A program made the position numbers and the translations under genes. Of a DNA stretch of 64,000 nt, positions 45,563 to 57,270 are shown piece after piece; within the stretch, counting starts at the first letter, position 1; the number at the start of each line of letters is the position of its first letter. The notes under the pieces were generated by a model. It had not been told where the DNA came from. It ran no database searches and was given only the letters and a program-made list of their open reading frames with translations. Origin of the DNA: Rhodobacterales bacterium HKCCE4037 (GTDB lineage Bacteria > Pseudomonadota > Alphaproteobacteria > Rhodobacterales > Rhodobacteraceae); NCBI GenBank assembly GCA_015689645.1, contig WVSM01000006.1, forward strand, positions 1 to 64,000, given 5' to 3'.

Positions 45563-45721
45563 AAGGTCCTCCAGAGCCTGCTGGACCCTGCATAGCAACT
45601 CTGCGCCCGAGGCCAAGCATCAACCCGCCGGTCGCGACGGTTTAAGACATTGCCGGAAAGCCGCGCCTCCGCTAGCTTTGCGGGCGAAAATGAACATCTC
45701 CGATCAAGGGAGGGTGCGGGA

Positions 45722-47215
45722 ATGAAACAGGCAATCTTCGCGGCGACACTTCTGGCACTGGCCTCCACGGCGCAGGCGCAGGACACCGGCGAGACCACGA
45801 CCGACATCCAGCAATACGACAACGGCGGCATCTACGAGGGTGAGTTCCGCAACGGCGTCCAGCACGGCACCGGCACCTACCGCCTGCCCAACGGCTACAC
45901 CTACACCGGCACCTGGGTCGATGGCGAGATCCGCGGCGAAGGCACCGCGACCTTCCCCGACCAATCCGTCTATGTCGGCGATTTCGTCGCCGGGCGTCCG
46001 CAGGGCGAGGGTACGATCACCTTCGCCGACGGCTCCACCTACGAGGGCGAGTGGAACGAGGGCCGGATCGAGGGCACCGGGACGGCGGTCTATTCCAACG
46101 GCGTCACCTACACCGGCCAGTTCCGCAACGCGCTCCACCACGGCACCGGCGTGATGACCGGCCCGAACGGCTACCGCTACGAGGGCGAGTGGCAGGACGG
46201 GCTGAAGCACGGCACCGGCTCCATCACCTATCCCGACGGTGCCACTTATACTGGCCAGTTCGCCGGCGGTGTGCGCTCGGGCACCGGGCGGCTCGAGATG
46301 GCCGATGGCGTCGTCTACGAGGGCCAGTGGGCCGAGGGCCAGATCAACGGCACCGGCACCCTCACCCAGCCCAACGGCGACGTCTATGTCGGCGCGCTGG
46401 TCAACGGCCAGCGGCAGGGGCAGGGGCGCGTGACCTACGCCAACGGCGACGTCTACGAAGGCGCCTTCGCGAACGACCAGCGCCACGGGCAGGGCACCTT
46501 CACCGGCGCCGACGGCTACGTCTACGTGGGTCCGTGGGTCGAGGGCTCGATCCAGGGCGAGGGCCGCGTGACCTATCCCGACGGCTCCGTCTACGAAGGC
46601 ACGTTCCGCAACGACCTCGCCCATGGCACCGGCACGATCACCTATCCAAACGGCTCCAGCTACACCGGCGGCTGGGTCGAGGGCGTGATCCAGGGCGCGG
46701 GCGTGGCGACCTATGCCAACGGGCTGGTCTACGACGGCAACTTCCTCAACGCGCGCCAGCACGGGCAGGGCACCATGACCCACCCCGACGGCTACCGCTA
46801 CCAGGGCCAGTGGGCCGAGGGCCTGCGCCACGGCGAGGGCGTGGCGACCTATGCCGACGGCACCGTCTACGAAGGCTCGTTCGAGGCCGGACAGCGCGAA
46901 GGGCAGGGCACCCTGACCATGCCCGACGGCTTCACCTACACCGGCGCCTGGGATGATGGCGAGATCAACGGCCAGGGCACCGCGACCTATTCCAACGGCG
47001 ATGTCTACACCGGCAACTTCGTCAACGGCCGTCGCCAGGGCGCGGGCACCATGACCTACGCCACCGGCGAGGTGCTGGAAGGCCAGTGGGAAAATGGCCT
47101 GCCGACCGACGGCACGGCCGGTGACGCCCCCGAACCCGCCGCCGAGCCCGACACCGGCGAAATCGCCCCCGGGGCCGGCGCCGCCGAGGAGGAGGCCCCG
47201 GCCGCCGACGAATGA
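45722..47215 (+). CDS. Exported MORN-repeat protein
   Basis: A 497-residue protein with a signal peptide (residues 1-20, ending TAQAQD). From about residue 38 to 465 it is almost entirely MORN repeats of exactly 23 residues: about 18 complete units plus a partial one (pattern YxGxF/W-x7-GxGxxxxxxG). Units alternate between an aromatic Phe and Trp form, giving a 46-residue superperiod. The tail is Ala/Pro/Glu-rich. The product would be a long beta-solenoid on the cell surface or in the periplasm. Function unknown; MORN proteins in eukaryotes bind membranes or proteins. Confidence 0.88.
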   Translation: MKQAIFAATLLALASTAQAQDTGETTTDIQQYDNGGIYEGEFRNGVQHGTGTYRLPNGYTYTGTWVDGEIRGEGTATFPDQSVYVGDFVAGRPQGEGTITFADGSTYEGEWNEGRIEGTGTAVYSNGVTYTGQFRNALHHGTGVMTGPNGYRYEGEWQDGLKHGTGSITYPDGATYTGQFAGGVRSGTGRLEMADGVVYEGQWAEGQINGTGTLTQPNGDVYVGALVNGQRQGQGRVTYANGDVYEGAFANDQRHGQGTFTGADGYVYVGPWVEGSIQGEGRVTYPDGSVYEGTFRNDLAHGTGTITYPNGSSYTGGWVEGVIQGAGVATYANGLVYDGNFLNARQHGQGTMTHPDGYRYQGQWAEGLRHGEGVATYADGTVYEGSFEAGQREGQGTLTMPDGFTYTGAWDDGEINGQGTATYSNGDVYTGNFVNGRRQGAGTMTYATGEVLEGQWENGLPTDGTAGDAPEPAAEPDTGEIAPGAGAAEEEAPAADE

Positions 47216-47836: not shown

Positions 47837-48136
47837 ATGAAGGCGTTTCAAGGACTTGCTGCAGCCCTATTGATCGGGCTGCCCTTACCCCTTGCCGCGC
47901 AGGAGCCTGGGAATTGCTGGCAATCGGCAACCTCGACCATCCTGCTCAACGACAATGACAACCATACCGAATACGCCACCTGCCGCGCCGCCTGCGAGGC
48001 TGACACCGCCTGCGCCGGGTGGAACTTCCGACCGCATTCCTTCGATGCCACCAGCCCCGGTCAGTGTCAGCTTCTGGGCGACATCTACCGCTCAGAGCCG
48101 TCCGACCGCGCCGTTTGCGGCCAGATCGACCTATAA
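47837..48136 (+). CDS. Secreted PAN/Apple-domain protein 1
   Basis: A 99-residue protein with a signal peptide (residues 1-21, ending LPLAAQE). The mature domain has six Cys spaced as in PAN/Apple domains (NCWQSA, YATCRAACEADTACAGWNF, GQCQLL, AVCGQ). Such domains bind proteins or carbohydrates. It is a paralogue of the next gene, and the two are spaced 40 bp apart. The partner and role are unknown. Confidence 0.82.
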   Translation: MKAFQGLAAALLIGLPLPLAAQEPGNCWQSATSTILLNDNDNHTEYATCRAACEADTACAGWNFRPHSFDATSPGQCQLLGDIYRSEPSDRAVCGQIDL

Positions 48137-48176
48137 ACACCACCCATTTCAACCTTTCCGACCAAGAGGACTTTCC

Positions 48177-48488
48177 ATGACACGTTTCCTGATCCCCGCC
48201 GCCCTTCTCGCCTGCCTCGCGCTGCCCGCCGCCGCGCAGGAGTTCGAGGAATGCCAGATCCTTCCGGGCGGCGGCGCATCGTCCAATGTCGATTACAACC
48301 AGATCGGCACCGCCGCCTGCGCCGAGTTCTGCGCCGCGACCGAAGGCTGTGCGGGCTGGACCTATACGCCGCACAATTTCAATCCCGATGGCGCGCCCGG
48401 TGAATGCCGCTGGGTGACCGAAGTGGGCTCCGTCGAACCGCCGGCCGAGACCGCTTCGGCCAATTTCTGTGGCCAGGTTTCCGGCTGA
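48177..48488 (+). CDS. Secreted PAN/Apple-domain protein 2
   Basis: A 103-residue paralogue of the preceding gene: signal peptide (residues 1-20, ending PAAAQE) and the same Cys pattern (EECQIL, TAACAEFCAATEGCAGWTY, GECRWV, NFCGQ). The AAGAGGA site upstream of the ATG at 48177 fits translation in series. The tandem pair likely arose by duplication. Confidence 0.82.
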   Translation: MTRFLIPAALLACLALPAAAQEFEECQILPGGGASSNVDYNQIGTAACAEFCAATEGCAGWTYTPHNFNPDGAPGECRWVTEVGSVEPPAETASANFCGQVSG

Positions 48489-50160: not shown

Positions 50161-52215
50161 TCACGCCGCGATCAGGCCCATGCTCTCCAGCTTCAGAAGG
50201 ACCTGCTGCGCGCAGTAATCCACGTCCACGCTCTCGGTGTCCACGACCAGCTCGGCGTTCGTCGGGGCCTCGTAGGGGTCCGAGATGCCGGTGAACTCCT
50301 TGATCTTGCCTTCCCGCGCGAGCTTGTAGAGCCCCTTGCGGTCGCGCCGCTCGCATTCCTCGATCGACGTCGCGACATGAACCTCGACGAAGGCGCCGAA
50401 CTGCTCGATCTCCTCCCGCACCGCGCGGCGCGTCGCCGTGTAGGGCGCGATCGGCGCGCAGATCGCGATGCCGCCGTTCTTGGTGATTTCCGAGGCGACG
50501 TAACCGATGCGCCGGATGTTGAGGTCGCGGTGCTCCTTCGAGAAGCCCAACTCGCTCGACAGGTTCTTGCGCACCACGTCGCCGTCAAGCAGCGTCACCG
50601 GACGCCCGCCTTGTTCCATCAGCTTGACCATGATCGCGTTTGCGATGGTCGACTTGCCCGAGCCCGAGAGGCCGGTGAAGAACACCGTGAAGCCCTGCTT
50701 CGAGCGCGGCGGCGAGGTGCGGCGCAGTTCCTTCACGACCTCGGGGAACGAGAACCATTCCGGGATCTCCAGCCCTTCCCGCAGACGGCGGCGCAGCTCG
50801 GTGCCCGAGATGTTCAGGATCGTCACGTTCTCCTTGTCCAGGATCTCGTCCGCCGGCTCGTATTGCGCGCGCTCCTGCACGTAGACCATGTGTTTGAAAT
50901 CGACCATCTCGATGCCGATCTCCTCCTGGTGCTCGCGGAACAGGTCCTGCGCGTCGTAGGGGCCGTAGAAATCCTCACCGGCGGAGTTCTTCCCGGGGCC
51001 TGCGTGGTCACGGCCGACGATCATGTGGGTGCAGCCGTGGTTTTTGCGGATCAGCCCGTGCCAGACGGCCTCGCGCGGGCCGGCCATCCGCATGGCGAGA
51101 TTCAGAAGGCTCATCGTAGTGGTGGCCGCCGGATACTTGTCGAGCACCGCCTCGTAGCAGCGCACGCGGGTGAAATGGTCCACGTCGCCCGGTTTCGTCA
51201 TGCCCACGACCGGATGGATCAGCAGGTTGGCCTGCGCTTCCTTGGCGGCGCGGAAGGTCAGTTCCTGGTGCGCCCGGTGCAGCGGGTTGCGGGTCTGGAA
51301 GGCGACGACGCGGCGCCAGCCAAGCTTGCGGAAATAGGCGCGCAGCTCGTTCGGCGTGTCGCGGCGCGCGCGGAAATCGTAGTGCACCGGCTGTTGGATG
51401 CCGGTGATCGCGCCGCCCAGGTAGACCGGGCCCGCGACGTTATGCAGGTAATTCACCGCCGGGTGGGCGATGTCATCGGCGCCGTAGACCTTCACGGCCT
51501 CGCGCGCCTTGTCCGGGCTCCATTTGTCGCTGATCGACAGGATGGCGAGGATCACGCCCTCGGCGTCGCGCAGGGCGATGTCCTGACCTTCCTCGATCGA
51601 GTCCGCAAAGGCCTCGGACACGTCCAGCGTGATCGGCATCGGCCAGAGCGTTCCGTCGGCCATCCGCATGTTCTCGACCACACCGTCGTAATCTTCCCGG
51701 CTCATGAAGCCCTTGAGCGGGTTGAAGCCGCCGTTCATCAGCAGTTCCAGATCGCAGACCTGGCGCTGGGTCAGGTCCCAACTGGGAAGCTCGGCGGCCT
51801 CCATCTTCAGTTTCTGGGCGCTGTCGTAGGAGACGTAGAGCTCAGGGATCGGAGCGTGAAGCGGCATGGCCATGGTTGCGGTCCTTTTGGCGGGAGAGAG
51901 TTTGGCGCTTTCACCGGTCAGTTCGGCGTGAAGCGCGTTGTATTCGGCGCGTTTGCGCGCGAGGAAAGCGTCGACGAGGCGGGATTTCTCCGCCGCGCCC
52001 TTCTGGGTGAGCGTATAGGCGACCTTCTGGCGGCGATCCCTGCTGTCACGCTCGACGATCCGGACCAGACCGGCCTGCGTGACGGCGCGCAACGCGGTGT
52101 TCAGGCCGCCGAGGCTGATTCCGAGGGCTTGCGCGGTCGCACGCTGAGAGGCCTGCGGCGCGGCATCGATCTGGCGCAGCAGGCGAAACAGCAGGTCTGT
52201 GTCGATCGTGGTCAC
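50161..52215 (-). CDS. MarR-type HTH fused to ATP sulfurylase/APS kinase
   Basis: A 684-residue single frame with three parts. Residues 1-100 are a winged helix of the EPS-associated MarR type (LGISLGGLNTALRAVTQAGLV, then YTLTQKGAAEKSRLVDAFLARK). Residues 115-490 are a homomeric ATP sulfurylase (QTRNPLHRAH near 305; GRDHAGPG near 400). Residues 500-684 are an APS kinase (GLSGSGKST near 512). It would make PAPS from sulfate and ATP. The start is GTG at 52215 with a weak ribosome site. An internal ATG at 51873 (residue 115) has AAGGA 8 nt upstream and matches the usual start of the enzyme, so both a fused and an enzyme-only product are possible. Two identical palindromes lie upstream. Confidence 0.85.
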   Translation of the reverse strand: MTTIDTDLLFRLLRQIDAAPQASQRATAQALGISLGGLNTALRAVTQAGLVRIVERDSRDRRQKVAYTLTQKGAAEKSRLVDAFLARKRAEYNALHAELTGESAKLSPAKRTATMAMPLHAPIPELYVSYDSAQKLKMEAAELPSWDLTQRQVCDLELLMNGGFNPLKGFMSREDYDGVVENMRMADGTLWPMPITLDVSEAFADSIEEGQDIALRDAEGVILAILSISDKWSPDKAREAVKVYGADDIAHPAVNYLHNVAGPVYLGGAITGIQQPVHYDFRARRDTPNELRAYFRKLGWRRVVAFQTRNPLHRAHQELTFRAAKEAQANLLIHPVVGMTKPGDVDHFTRVRCYEAVLDKYPAATTTMSLLNLAMRMAGPREAVWHGLIRKNHGCTHMIVGRDHAGPGKNSAGEDFYGPYDAQDLFREHQEEIGIEMVDFKHMVYVQERAQYEPADEILDKENVTILNISGTELRRRLREGLEIPEWFSFPEVVKELRRTSPPRSKQGFTVFFTGLSGSGKSTIANAIMVKLMEQGGRPVTLLDGDVVRKNLSSELGFSKEHRDLNIRRIGYVASEITKNGGIAICAPIAPYTATRRAVREEIEQFGAFVEVHVATSIEECERRDRKGLYKLAREGKIKEFTGISDPYEAPTNAELVVDTESVDVDYCAQQVLLKLESMGLIAA
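51873..51886 (-). promoter_or_regulatory. Internal ribosome site and start for the enzyme part
   Basis: On the minus strand AAGGA at 51882-51886 precedes the ATG at 51871-51873 by 8 nt. This ATG begins MAMPLHAPIPEL, the normal beginning of stand-alone bifunctional sulfurylase/kinase. It gives a means of making the enzyme without the DNA-binding domain. Confidence 0.6.
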
Positions 52216-52234: not shown

Positions 52235-52254
52235 TTTGTTCACGGCTGAACGCA
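52235..52254. promoter_or_regulatory. Palindromic operator copy 1
   Basis: TTTGTTCA (52235-52242), a 4-bp spacer and TGAACGCA (52247-52254). The left part is identical to the second copy, including the preceding AGG; the right arm has two changes. It overlaps the expected promoter of the minus-strand gene at 52215. Confidence 0.7.
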
Positions 52255-52283
52255 TATGACGGGCAGAGCCGTTTGGAAAGAGG

Positions 52284-52303
52284 TTTGTTCAGTCGTGAAC
52301 AAA
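52284..52303. promoter_or_regulatory. Palindromic operator copy 2
   Basis: A perfect TTTGTTCA-N4-TGAACAAA at 52284-52303. Its centre lies 49 bp from that of the first copy, roughly five helical turns, so both could be on the same DNA face. It is located in the divergent space between the MarR-sulfurylase gene and the sulfotransferase gene. Confidence 0.75.
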
Positions 52304-52405: not shown

Positions 52406-53461
52406 ATGATCGACGAGCTGATCCTCCATATCGGGATGCCGAAAACCGGCACGACCTCAATCCAGCGGGCGCTCCATGCAGCACGGCGAGGAGAGGATTG
52501 GACCTATCTCGACCTCAACCCGCCGCATTCGGCCAATCCGGTGATCCTGCGCGCCCATGGTGGCCTCGCGCCGGTGTCGCTGCATCCCGGCCCGCGCCGG
52601 GTCCGGTCCCCGGAAGCTGCGCATCGTCACATGACGCGCGCACTCGAAGCCGTGCGTACAGGGCGCGCGATCTTGTCGGCGGAGGCGATGGTGCGCCTGC
52701 CGCCTGCCGCGGTCGCAAGCCTGCTTTCGCATCTGTCACGCCACGCCCGCACAATTCGCGCCGTGGCCTACGTCCGCCCGCCCTATTCCTTCATCACGTC
52801 CTACGTGCAGCAATTCTACAAGACCGGCCATGCACCGCTAGAGAATGTCCTGCGCCGTGCTGCCCGTCCGATCACGGCGGATATCGCGATGTGGGAACAC
52901 GCATTGGGCGCGGATCGCGTGAGCCTGTTTCCCTTCGCGCGAGAAGCGTTCAGTGGCGCCTCCGTGGTTCGGCATTTCGCCGAGGCGCTGGCCCTCGGCA
53001 CGCTACCTGAACAGACGCTGGATGCAAACGTCAGCCTCGGCGACGAGGCGACGCGCCTGCTCTACCAGTTCCGGCGACGCTACCCGGTGCGGGCAAATGC
53101 CGACGGGCGCATCCTCTTCCGGCTCGCGAAACTGGAGGGGCAGGGCTTCCAGCTCCACCCTGACTGCTTCGGCGGTTTCACCCCGACGGTCGAGGCCACC
53201 CATGCATGGGCGCGGTCGAGGATGGGCTGGGACATGGATGACCCGGCACCGATGGCCACGCCGCGCGCCGTCGCGACGGACGCCGGCTTCGATGACATCC
53301 TACCCGAAACCCTTGATTGGCTGGCGAAAAACACTGCCCGGCCCATGTCTGCGCTGAACGGTGACCCGGACGCGATCGCAGATGCCGTCCGCAGCCTGCG
53401 CGACCGTCCGACCCTGCAAGGGATCGTGGGTCGCGTCGTGCGCCAGTTCAAGAGGGCCTGA
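52406..53461 (+). CDS. Sulfotransferase-like protein
   Basis: A 351-residue protein with MIDELILHIGMPKTGTTSIQ, whose GMPKTGTTSIQ is the PAPS 5'-phosphosulfate loop. A second family-like segment is AYVRPPYSFITSYVQQFY near residue 118. It would transfer sulfate from PAPS to an unknown acceptor, perhaps a glycan. It is divergent from the PAPS-making gene with two shared operator-like sites between, so co-regulation is likely. It ends 6 bp from trxB, on the opposite strand. Confidence 0.82.
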   Translation: MIDELILHIGMPKTGTTSIQRALHAARRGEDWTYLDLNPPHSANPVILRAHGGLAPVSLHPGPRRVRSPEAAHRHMTRALEAVRTGRAILSAEAMVRLPPAAVASLLSHLSRHARTIRAVAYVRPPYSFITSYVQQFYKTGHAPLENVLRRAARPITADIAMWEHALGADRVSLFPFAREAFSGASVVRHFAEALALGTLPEQTLDANVSLGDEATRLLYQFRRRYPVRANADGRILFRLAKLEGQGFQLHPDCFGGFTPTVEATHAWARSRMGWDMDDPAPMATPRAVATDAGFDDILPETLDWLAKNTARPMSALNGDPDAIADAVRSLRDRPTLQGIVGRVVRQFKRA

Positions 53462-55251: not shown

Positions 55252-57270
55252 ATGCCTCCGATTGATCTGACTGCGCTCTACCGCGAGGGGCTTGCCCATC
55301 AGCAGGCCGGCCGACTGGACGAGGCGCTGGCCCTCTACGACCGTATTCTGTCGCACAAGCCAGACATTCCCGAAGTGCTGTTCCAGAAGGCGCGCTGCCT
55401 GGGCGACAAGCCGGGTGAGGCCGAGCCGTTGTTCCGCAAAGCCCTCAAGCTGAAGCCGAAAGAGGCGGCGATCTGGCAGGGATTGCACTCCGTCCTGTCC
55501 GGGAAAGAGCGGGCCAAGCTGGAGGTTCAGGCGGCAAGGGCAGGCGTTGTCATAGGGTCCGAGAAAGACGTGGCGAAGGCGCAAAGGCTGCTGCGCGCAG
55601 GCGACCTTTCGGCGGCGGAGGTTGAGGCGATGCGACTTGCCAAGGCCGCTCCACAGGCGTTCTGGCCGGTTTACGTGCTGGGCCTGGCCCGGCAGGGCGC
55701 GGCGGCGATCCCGCCGCTCGAAGCCGCCCATGCGCGCGACCCGTCGCACATCGGCGCGCGGCTGGCATTGGCGCGGGCGACCCTTGCGGCCGGACAGATC
55801 GCGAGAACCGAAGAGTTGCTGTCGGTCGCCGGACTGCCCGACGCCGCCACCGTCCTCAAGGCGCGCCTGTTGCGGGACACCGCCCGGCCCGATGAGGCGG
55901 CGGATCTGCTCAGCGACGGACCTTTGCGCGACGCGACGTGGCAAAGGGAGCTGGCCCTGTCCGCCGCGGCGGCATTCCGTGGCGATCAGGCGAAAGATGC
56001 CCTTGCGCGCGCCATCGCGGCGGGGGCGGATCGTGTCGCCGCCACGCGGTCTGTCGCCATGGCCGCGGAAAGCGCAGGCGACGTCGCTACGGCCGAGGAG
56101 ATGATCGCCGCTGCAACCGAGGCCACGCCGACCGCCGATCTCTACCTGCATCGCGCGCAGTTCCGGCAATCGGCCGGTGATGCCGCTGCGGCCGAAGCCG
56201 ATCTCGACGCTGCCCTGGCCCTCGACCCCACGAGCGGCGAGGCTTTTCGCGCTTATGCCAACGGGCGAAAGGTCGCGGATGGCTCGCCGCTTCCCGGCCG
56301 CATCGCTTCCGCCCTTGCGCGCTCCGGGACGTCCGCGATGGACCGGGCAAGCCTGCATTTCGCCGCGGCGAAATGCGCCGTCGACCAGGGCCGCCATGGC
56401 GAGGTGATGGACCACCTGCACCGGGCCAACCGCCTTGTGGCGAAGGCGTTTCCTTACGGTTTCGAAAGTGACCTGGCGCAGGCGCGGGCGCTTGCCTCGG
56501 ATTGGAATGCGCTGGAGCCTTTGGCCCCGACAGGCCCTGGCGCGCCGGTGATCTTCGTCACCGGACTGCCGCGATCCGGGACCACGCTGGTCGAGACGAT
56601 CCTCGCCGCCCATCCGGATGCCGGCGTGGGCGGCGAGATGCCGTTTCTCGGGCGGGCGCTGGCGCCGACCCTCGATCTGCTGCGGCGCGATGGGCGCGCG
56701 GATGCGGGAATGCTGGCCGATGCGGGTTTGCGGTACCTCACACTGGCCAGCCGCTGTGCCGGCGCCCCGAAAGTCATCGTCGACAAGGCGATTTCGACGT
56801 TCTCGCGGATGGGCCACGCCCTGCGCGCCTTGCCAAACGCGCGGATCGTTCACGTCATCCGCGACCCGCGGGACGTGGGCCTGTCGCTCTACCGCAACAA
56901 GTTTCCCGACGGGCTGCATCGCTATGCCTATGATCTGACCGAGATGGGCCGCTACATCCGGCTGCACGACGCGATCGCCGGCTTCTGGAAAGCCGCTCTG
57001 CCGAACCGCGTCCACACCATTTCCTACGAGGATCTGACCGCCGAGCCCGAGGCGCAGATCCGCGCGTTGCTCGATGCCGTGGGACTGCCGTTCGATCCGG
57101 CCTGTCTTGCGCCGCAGGACAGTGGCCGCCGGATCCAGACACTGAGCTTCGCGCAGGCCCGTGCCCCGATCGGACGTGGTTCGGTCGCTGCGTGGGAGCG
57201 GTATCGCGCGGATCTGGAACCGCTCCTGCTGGCTCTGGAGCAACCGGTTGCCCTCGATCAGCCGGACTAG
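55252..57270 (+). CDS. TPR-sulfotransferase fusion protein
   Basis: A 672-residue protein. Residues about 1-420 are tetratricopeptide-like helical repeats rich in Ala/Leu. The C-terminal domain starts with VIFVTGLPRSGTTLVETIL near 433 (PAPS 5'-phosphosulfate loop), has VIRDPRDVGLSLYRN near 534 (3'-phosphate motif) and ends SVAAWERYRADLEPLLLAL, as in TPR-tyrosylprotein-type sulfotransferases. It might sulfate proteins or glycans. It is close to the lrp gene and may share its transcript. A third sulfotransferase-like gene in the window. Confidence 0.85.
   Translation: MPPIDLTALYREGLAHQQAGRLDEALALYDRILSHKPDIPEVLFQKARCLGDKPGEAEPLFRKALKLKPKEAAIWQGLHSVLSGKERAKLEVQAARAGVVIGSEKDVAKAQRLLRAGDLSAAEVEAMRLAKAAPQAFWPVYVLGLARQGAAAIPPLEAAHARDPSHIGARLALARATLAAGQIARTEELLSVAGLPDAATVLKARLLRDTARPDEAADLLSDGPLRDATWQRELALSAAAAFRGDQAKDALARAIAAGADRVAATRSVAMAAESAGDVATAEEMIAAATEATPTADLYLHRAQFRQSAGDAAAAEADLDAALALDPTSGEAFRAYANGRKVADGSPLPGRIASALARSGTSAMDRASLHFAAAKCAVDQGRHGEVMDHLHRANRLVAKAFPYGFESDLAQARALASDWNALEPLAPTGPGAPVIFVTGLPRSGTTLVETILAAHPDAGVGGEMPFLGRALAPTLDLLRRDGRADAGMLADAGLRYLTLASRCAGAPKVIVDKAISTFSRMGHALRALPNARIVHVIRDPRDVGLSLYRNKFPDGLHRYAYDLTEMGRYIRLHDAIAGFWKAALPNRVHTISYEDLTAEPEAQIRALLDAVGLPFDPACLAPQDSGRRIQTLSFAQARAPIGRGSVAAWERYRADLEPLLLALEQPVALDQPD

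Follow-up and report, generated by a model that had tools for sequence, protein, structure and literature searches.

Can an enzyme that activates sulfate also act as the repressor of its own gene? The question is raised by a gene on the minus strand of the window (the whole stretch of DNA analysed, 64,000 nucleotides long), in which a putative DNA-binding domain precedes an ATP sulfurylase/APS kinase. The parts of this gene are as follows.

50161–52215, minus strand: fused gene for winged helix, ATP sulfurylase and APS kinase, 684 aa with a GTG start (open frame, profiles).
51916–52200, minus strand: MarR/PadR-like winged-helix domain, residues 6–100 (TIGR04176, HTH_24, structural model, fold searches, dN/dS).
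51874–51912, minus strand: linker of 13 residues (102–114), 12–14 residues long in relatives (scored by script).

The first-pass annotation had described one uninterrupted frame leading from a winged helix into a complete ATP sulfurylase/APS kinase, and the frame is indeed open for 684 aa. It lies on the minus strand, begins with a GTG at 52215–52213, is preceded by an in-frame stop 8 codons before the GTG, and ends with a stop codon at 50163–50161. The enzyme part gives profile matches to PUA_2 (residues 122–274), ATP-sulfurylase (285–499) and APS_kinase (507–659). PRK05537, the bifunctional Sat/APS kinase, scores 1050 bits over residues 115–683 against a curated cut-off of 669, which makes the enzyme part an ordinary member of that family. 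The motifs of Sat/APS kinase chosen for comparison, QTRNPxHRAH and the kinase P-loop GxSGSGKST, are intact in all 63 fused and all 54 unfused proteins. In the genome of the window, APS_kinase has a single match, the fused gene itself; CysD was not found by profile search, and the PAPS reductase family has one match. Judged by these profiles, the fused gene encodes the only sulfate-activating enzyme found in this genome.

The N-terminal domain had been called an EPS-associated MarR winged helix. TIGR04176 MarR_EPS (a model of 105 positions) is the best-matching family, on residues 6–100, and that part of the assignment stands. The scores of 78.7 bits for the whole protein, 83.6 for residues 1–115 and 83.0 in the genome search lie below the curated cut-off of 88, and the domain is a relative of the MarR_EPS regulators, not a certified member. 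Because the score falls under the family cut-off and the conserved neighbours are trxB and lrp, the EPS label is only approximate; the fused gene differs from these regulators further in being joined to an enzyme. HTH_24 passes its gathering score of 21.9 on residues 8–52 (25.8 bits in the full protein, 30.0 for residues 1–115); Pfam MarR_2 (19.8 and 23.7 bits, respectively) and Pfam MarR (13.6 and 17.2 bits) stay below their gathering scores of 27 and 24.6. At the fold level, residues 6–100 form a winged helix-turn-helix. The predicted structure of the domain has a pLDDT of 90, with helix 35–47 in the place of the recognition helix and a long C-terminal helix at residues 71–100, and fold searches that used this model alone as the query found resemblance to MarR, PadR and Sso10a proteins. 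The full-length model, built on an alignment of 56 rows whose non-query members are 80–93% identical to the query, is weak in the enzyme core (pTM 0.47) and has a pLDDT below 50 at residues 108–120, in the linker region; such a low-confidence linker could reflect a loose coupling of the domains. The dN/dS of the winged helix is ~0.02–0.18 in 14 of 15 genus pairs, dS being undefined in one, and by this estimate the domain is under purifying selection. Compared with free copies in the same bacterial family, the fused winged helix is 35–46% identical.

That the fusion is an artefact of a sequencing error or a wrong frame has a practically negligible probability. The same fusion is open in all 13 searched genomes of the window's genus and in 50 further genera, and conservation of this breadth rules out a frameshift. 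We searched 248 Rhodobacteraceae genomes, about one per genus. The full protein found a match in 234 of them, with at least 51 rows spanning both domains, and the winged helix alone matched in 78 genomes at an E value of 1e-12 or better. Winged-helix matches with at least 53% identity number 52, of which 51 lie in frames of at least 690 aa; the 52nd (G068) is a 267-aa frame at position 471 of its contig, near the end, and is probably cut. The remaining 38 rows, at most 46% identical and in frames of 119–217 aa, are free regulators. Close homologues thus keep the fusion in 51 of 248 genomes (about a fifth of the sampled Rhodobacteraceae genera), with G068 probably a further case. A split form, in which winged helix and enzyme are two genes, was not seen by the winged-helix search of the 248 genomes; the homologues are not the two separate genes that the first-pass annotation had allowed for.

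A winged-helix search in 61 genomes of relatives gave some match in 34, and the 17 strongest rows, with open frames of 690 to 788 aa, come from the 13 genus genomes and four other genera. Besides the window gene, 62 other loci were classed as fused and carry the same fusion; in G273 the frame is open for 695 aa, the TAG in the match being its terminal stop. From 382 relatives in a scan of named records, 80 were kept, among them Roseicyclus, Phaeobacter, Leisingera, Shimia and Roseovarius. All 80 frames run on into the enzyme over the length that each record covers; 79 were scored by script, and L161, missed by the script's motif search, was judged from its 689-aa frame. The named records and the 248-genome set share strains and are not independent samples. 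The fusion is real and old. Three of the records are titled Nocardioides marinus, Maritalea mobilis and a Hyphomicrobiales MAG (L168, L222 and L156) and hold Rhodobacteraceae-type sequence; they are probably mislabelled or mixed.

The fusion is not fixed within the family. In a tree built from the enzyme part by a quick method, the fused genes are interspersed among the unfused ones, with 24 state changes against 38.8 in shuffles, and well-supported branches force at least six changes between the fused and unfused states. The tree indicates many losses or transfers of the fusion, so that any control exerted by it is dispensable. Fused and unfused genes often share the same locus, behind a trxB that lies upstream on the same strand (44 of 63 fused stretches, 32 of 54 unfused stretches), which suggests repeated joint loss of winged helix and operator, at an unchanged locus, as the most likely course; transfer may be the alternative. 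Among the named fused loci longer than 11 kb, 60 of 61 have trxB upstream and lrp divergent. The family offers dozens of natural relatives 'with' and 'without' the winged helix, many at the same locus. Sat/APS kinase genes of 84–87% identity were also seen on plasmids of Roseobacter, Sulfitobacter and other Rhodobacteraceae; among the matches listed (15 rows, of 24 records), these cover the enzyme part only.

What the winged helix might bind is suggested by the DNA upstream of the gene, where the following features are placed.

52238–52251, no strand: proximal operator-like palindrome GTTCA-N4-TGAAC, abutting the -10-like ATATG.
52287–52300, no strand: distal palindrome GTTCA-N4-TGAAC, 49 bp from the proximal one.
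52253–52280, minus strand: inferred core promoter, with CTTT at 52280–52277 and ATATG at 52257–52253.

Both palindromes, which the first-pass annotation did not contain, are perfect. They are the only two exact copies of GTTCA-N4-TGAAC in the 64-kb window. With one mismatch the window holds three, a number reached by 5 of 100 shuffles; the signal from the window alone is weak, and it is the comparison with relatives that carries the case. For this comparison, 300 bases upstream of 117 loci were scanned, 63 fused and 54 unfused. Of the unfused loci, 14 were picked because of unusual ends or internal stops; the other 40 came from further rows, and 8 of these have long open frames. Together they are part of the unfused rows listed, not every unfused genome. 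Within the 300 bases the palindrome is exact upstream of 61 of 62 fused genes and has one mismatch in the 62nd (G226, whose contig ends, was left out), whereas none of the 54 unfused genes has it, even with one mismatch. This distribution agrees with the earlier proposal of an enzyme that binds its own promoter, here as a prediction. Among the named loci with upstream DNA, whose strains partly overlap the genome set, the palindrome is exact in 77 of 79, and in all six independent pairs on the tree it goes with the fusion (sign test, p 0.03).

A second exact palindrome stands 48–49 bp upstream in 12 of 13 genus members and also in G271, G195 and G190; in G023 the second copy has a mismatch and is 47 bp away. 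A variant second site, GTTCT-N4-TGAAC, lies 32–34 bp from the proximal palindrome in G108, G117, G118, G159, G181, G266 and G276, and the same variant was seen in several named loci. When 128 distinct upstream regions were aligned on the proximal palindrome, the consensus contained CTTT at -29 to -26 and a conserved TG..AT[G] ending at the palindrome; a consensus scan of the locus for a sigma-70 promoter and a terminator gave no match. On this alignment, the proximal palindrome appears to cover the -10 end and the likely transcription start, the classic place for a repressor. The exact GTTCA-N4-TGAACAAA was found only at the fused gene's own promoter in the nine Roseicyclus genomes searched, of 13. 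Allowing one mismatch, TGTTCA-N4-TGAACA has 3–11 places per genome among the matches listed for 17 genomes, against 0–4 for a reversed control; since these places outnumber the control, weaker further targets of the winged helix are possible. Sequence comparison can hardly establish the fusion, its conservation or its association with the palindrome more firmly than it does here. One separate site, GTTTAACGTTGAACAAA, is one mismatch from the operator pattern and is kept letter for letter in all nine Roseicyclus genomes searched. In G000 (L261 offset 1723; G000:C1:135223) it lies just upstream of a frame that we read as dihydrolipoyl-dehydrogenase-like, and it was not counted as a regulon target.

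Because the palindrome is tied to the winged helix, sits at the -10 region and start, and has no other exact copy in nine genus members, we propose autorepression by the fused protein, which is very likely on this evidence. A fuller scheme, an autorepressing 'trigger enzyme' accompanied by free enzyme from an internal start, we consider probable. The long product (684 aa) would be a winged-helix repressor joined to ATP sulfurylase/APS kinase, and its winged-helix dimers would bind the GTTCA-N4-TGAAC that overlaps the gene's own -10 region and likely transcription start, with the second copy 48–49 bp upstream in the 12 genus members that carry it. Once enough long product was present, transcription would be shut off, and the enzyme part, with PAPS or APS bound, would most likely reinforce this repression by a signal of its own. 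A second start in the same frame, usually with the better ribosome site, would yield free enzyme. One mRNA would then give both repressor-enzyme and plain enzyme, and mixed oligomers of the long and short products could form. DNA binding, repression rather than activation, the production of both proteins and any ligand are what we infer from these comparisons. The winged helix might instead activate transcription of its own gene, using as an activator site the distal palindrome found 48–49 bp upstream in most of the window's genus. This is very unlikely: what the fused genes conserve is the proximal site, which coincides with the -10 region and start, and lineages lacking the winged helix retain the enzyme.

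The second product of the preferred scheme, autorepression combined with free enzyme, would depend on two features inside the frame.

51882–51888, minus strand: internal ribosome site AAAAGGA, its AGGA kept in 62 of 63 fused genes.
50164–51873, minus strand: internal ATG and predicted short product, residues 115–684, a complete ATP sulfurylase/APS kinase (profiles, motifs).

The linker TGESAKLSPAKRTAT and the AAAAGGACCGCAACC-ATG, read earlier as a short linker followed by an enzyme start with its own AAGGA site, are both present. The internal ATG (51873–51871, residue 115) is separated by an 8-base gap from the last A of AAAAGGA and stands approximately at the start position of the unfused relatives. 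The internal start codon is ATG in 61 of 62 fused genes and GTG in one, and G226 also has GTG. AGGA is kept although the rest of the linker is variable. It is carried by an Arg codon, and 62 of the 67 linker Arg codons read AGG, against 31 of 3364 Arg codons elsewhere in the same frames, which argues that selection acts on the internal ribosome site and not just on the protein. The internal start pairs more strongly with the anti-SD than does the long start, which was chosen by rule, in 54 of 62 genes; the two are equal in 2, and the long start pairs better in 6 (medians of -4.0 for the internal and -2.2 for the long start). Given this conserved internal ribosome site, two products from one frame are likely. 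With no stop between the domains, ribosomes making the winged helix would continue into the enzyme, so that the long protein is also expected, barring cleavage. The first-pass annotation had posed alternatives, either an enzyme bound to its own promoter or two products of a single frame. The evidence points to their occurring together: each half survives as a prediction, and the either/or does not. The regulator would be missed by any annotation that places the start of the gene at the internal ATG.

A different reading of the same two starts is that the gene encodes two functional proteins and no functional fusion, the long product being cut in the linker or made as a rare by-product and the short enzyme alone being of consequence. 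The strong, conserved internal start and the variable, low-confidence linker would fit such an arrangement, but we regard it as improbable: no stop has arisen between the domains in 51 intact cases, though one substitution would suffice, and the winged helix, by its dN/dS, is under purifying selection.

Returning to the fused protein as an autorepressor, sensing of PAPS or APS by the enzyme part is plausible. A stronger version, in which the sulfate-activating enzyme is itself the switch through PAPS/APS-dependent DNA binding and the internal start sets the ratio of sensor-enzyme to plain enzyme, is tentative, its chances falling just short of even. The nearest solved relatives of the enzyme part are 1i2d and 1m8p, with 2gks also among the solved relatives. 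1i2d and 1m8p are ATP sulfurylases of fungi, in which the kinase-like domain acts as a PAPS sensor through allosteric binding, and on that account PAPS is the first candidate ligand. The P-loop is changed in 1i2d (GYMNSGKD) and intact in the fused protein (GLSGSGKS). No solved chain joining Sat/APS kinase to such a winged helix was seen in the structure searches.

A ligand is not needed if the winged helix simply counts the long product, as a homeostat would, with the enzyme as passive cargo. We regard this ligand-free autorepressor as possible, with rather more doubt than belief. It fits the finding that the enzyme parts of fused and unfused relatives are indistinguishable: no alignment column clearly separates the two groups, the best value being 0.394 against a mean of 0.291 and a largest value of 0.399 among the maxima of 200 shuffles, so the enzyme sequence holds no pointer to a special ligand-to-DNA signal. 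The low-confidence linker and the frequent loss of the winged helix fit it as well. However, such counting would be done equally well by a separate regulator gene within the operon, yet no split form was seen in the 248 genomes, which suggests that the joining to the enzyme matters. The nearest structures, fungal proteins with a PAPS-binding kinase-like domain, also speak for a sensor rather than for cargo.

The half-site of the operator is shared beyond the fused genes. A TIGR04176 profile search matched 30 of 142 genomes of the class, and most of these matches, except two fused genes, lie in frames of 192–339 aa with a different C-terminal part. Within 250 bases upstream of 32 winged-helix relatives (27 longer and 5 short free genes), GTTCA-N5-TGAAC is present at 19, with 35 exact sites in total; shuffled upstream sequences gave 0.00 for the 5-base spacer. 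All 19 genes are of the longer kind (19 of 27), and 8 of the 27 longer genes are without the site. None of the five short free relatives has the 5-base-spacer site; L020 has GTTCA-N4-TGAAC, and the other four have neither. Since GTTCA-N5-TGAAC stands upstream of 19 of the 32 relatives, the half-site GTTCA appears to belong to the wider winged-helix group, of which the fused branch uses a 4-base spacer. Alphaproteobacterial proteins composed of a winged helix and a Rossmann-like part resemble the fused gene in their related winged helix and in the GTTCA half-site upstream; they differ in the spacer, five bases against four, and in a C-terminal part unlike ATP sulfurylase/APS kinase. In the L234–L257 group, whose translations show a winged helix followed by a Rossmann-like C-terminal part, 19 of 27 genes have one to three exact GTTCA-N5-TGAAC palindromes upstream, and the group is possibly an undescribed autoregulated family.

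Two known systems are closest in plan. PutA of E. coli combines a metabolic enzyme and a DNA-binding repressor in one polypeptide and binds only the intergenic region beside its own gene (putA/putP); the same source names five such enzymes for E. coli (PMC8249747). The likeness lies in the presence of an enzyme and a DNA-binding domain in one protein, here by sequence and fold, and in the operator-like palindrome at the gene's own promoter, which in the sequence test accompanied every fused gene with at most one mismatch. The DNA-binding domain of PutA is a ribbon-helix-helix, in contrast to the winged helix here, and both the enzyme and the pathway are different; the fused gene probably also yields enzyme without the DNA-binding part, through its internal start. 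BzdR is described as a DNA-binding domain fused by a linker to a shikimate-kinase-like domain that has lost enzyme activity and serves as a sensor (PMC3602430). The order of DNA-binding domain, linker and P-loop-kinase-derived domain is that of the fused protein, whereas the kinase-like domain described for BzdR is inactive and the catalytic motifs of the fused protein are intact.

The first-pass annotation knew of no described example, and the literature search bears this out within its reach: by titles and abstract starts, no paper describing ATP sulfurylase in fusion with a MarR domain or winged helix was recognised, most subscription papers and bioRxiv lying outside the search. Few enzyme-repressors are known, and the fused gene adds to them an exact predicted operator and a predicted second product. 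If the PAPS/APS-switch reading is true, it would represent a trigger enzyme of a new design, one that also divides its own dose between two products. Whether the enzyme that makes APS and PAPS also senses either of them directly becomes testable with this gene. At issue is how Phaeobacter, Leisingera, Shimia, Roseovarius and related bacteria activate sulfate.

Several neighbouring frames of the window were noted in passing. A divergent ORF at 52406–53461 (plus strand) begins with HIGMPKTGTTS, presumably a sulfotransferase-like motif, and has no Pfam match at 1e-5. It shares with the fused gene the 190-bp gap that holds both palindromes and, on account of this common gap, might be co-regulated with it; relatives of this ORF lie nearby in 2 of 61 and 5 of 63 loci. 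A TPR protein with a Sulfotransfer_3 domain is encoded at 55252–57270 (plus strand), a likely PAPS user near the PAPS-forming gene. On the other side, 45650–47215 (plus strand) is a 521-aa ORF composed largely of MORN repeats, and 47837–48136 (plus strand) encodes a small PAN-domain-like protein (PF14295, 26.5 bits against a cut-off of 27). Behind the latter, an overlapping ORF at 47892–48488 (plus strand) is, by eye, an apparent second similar copy.
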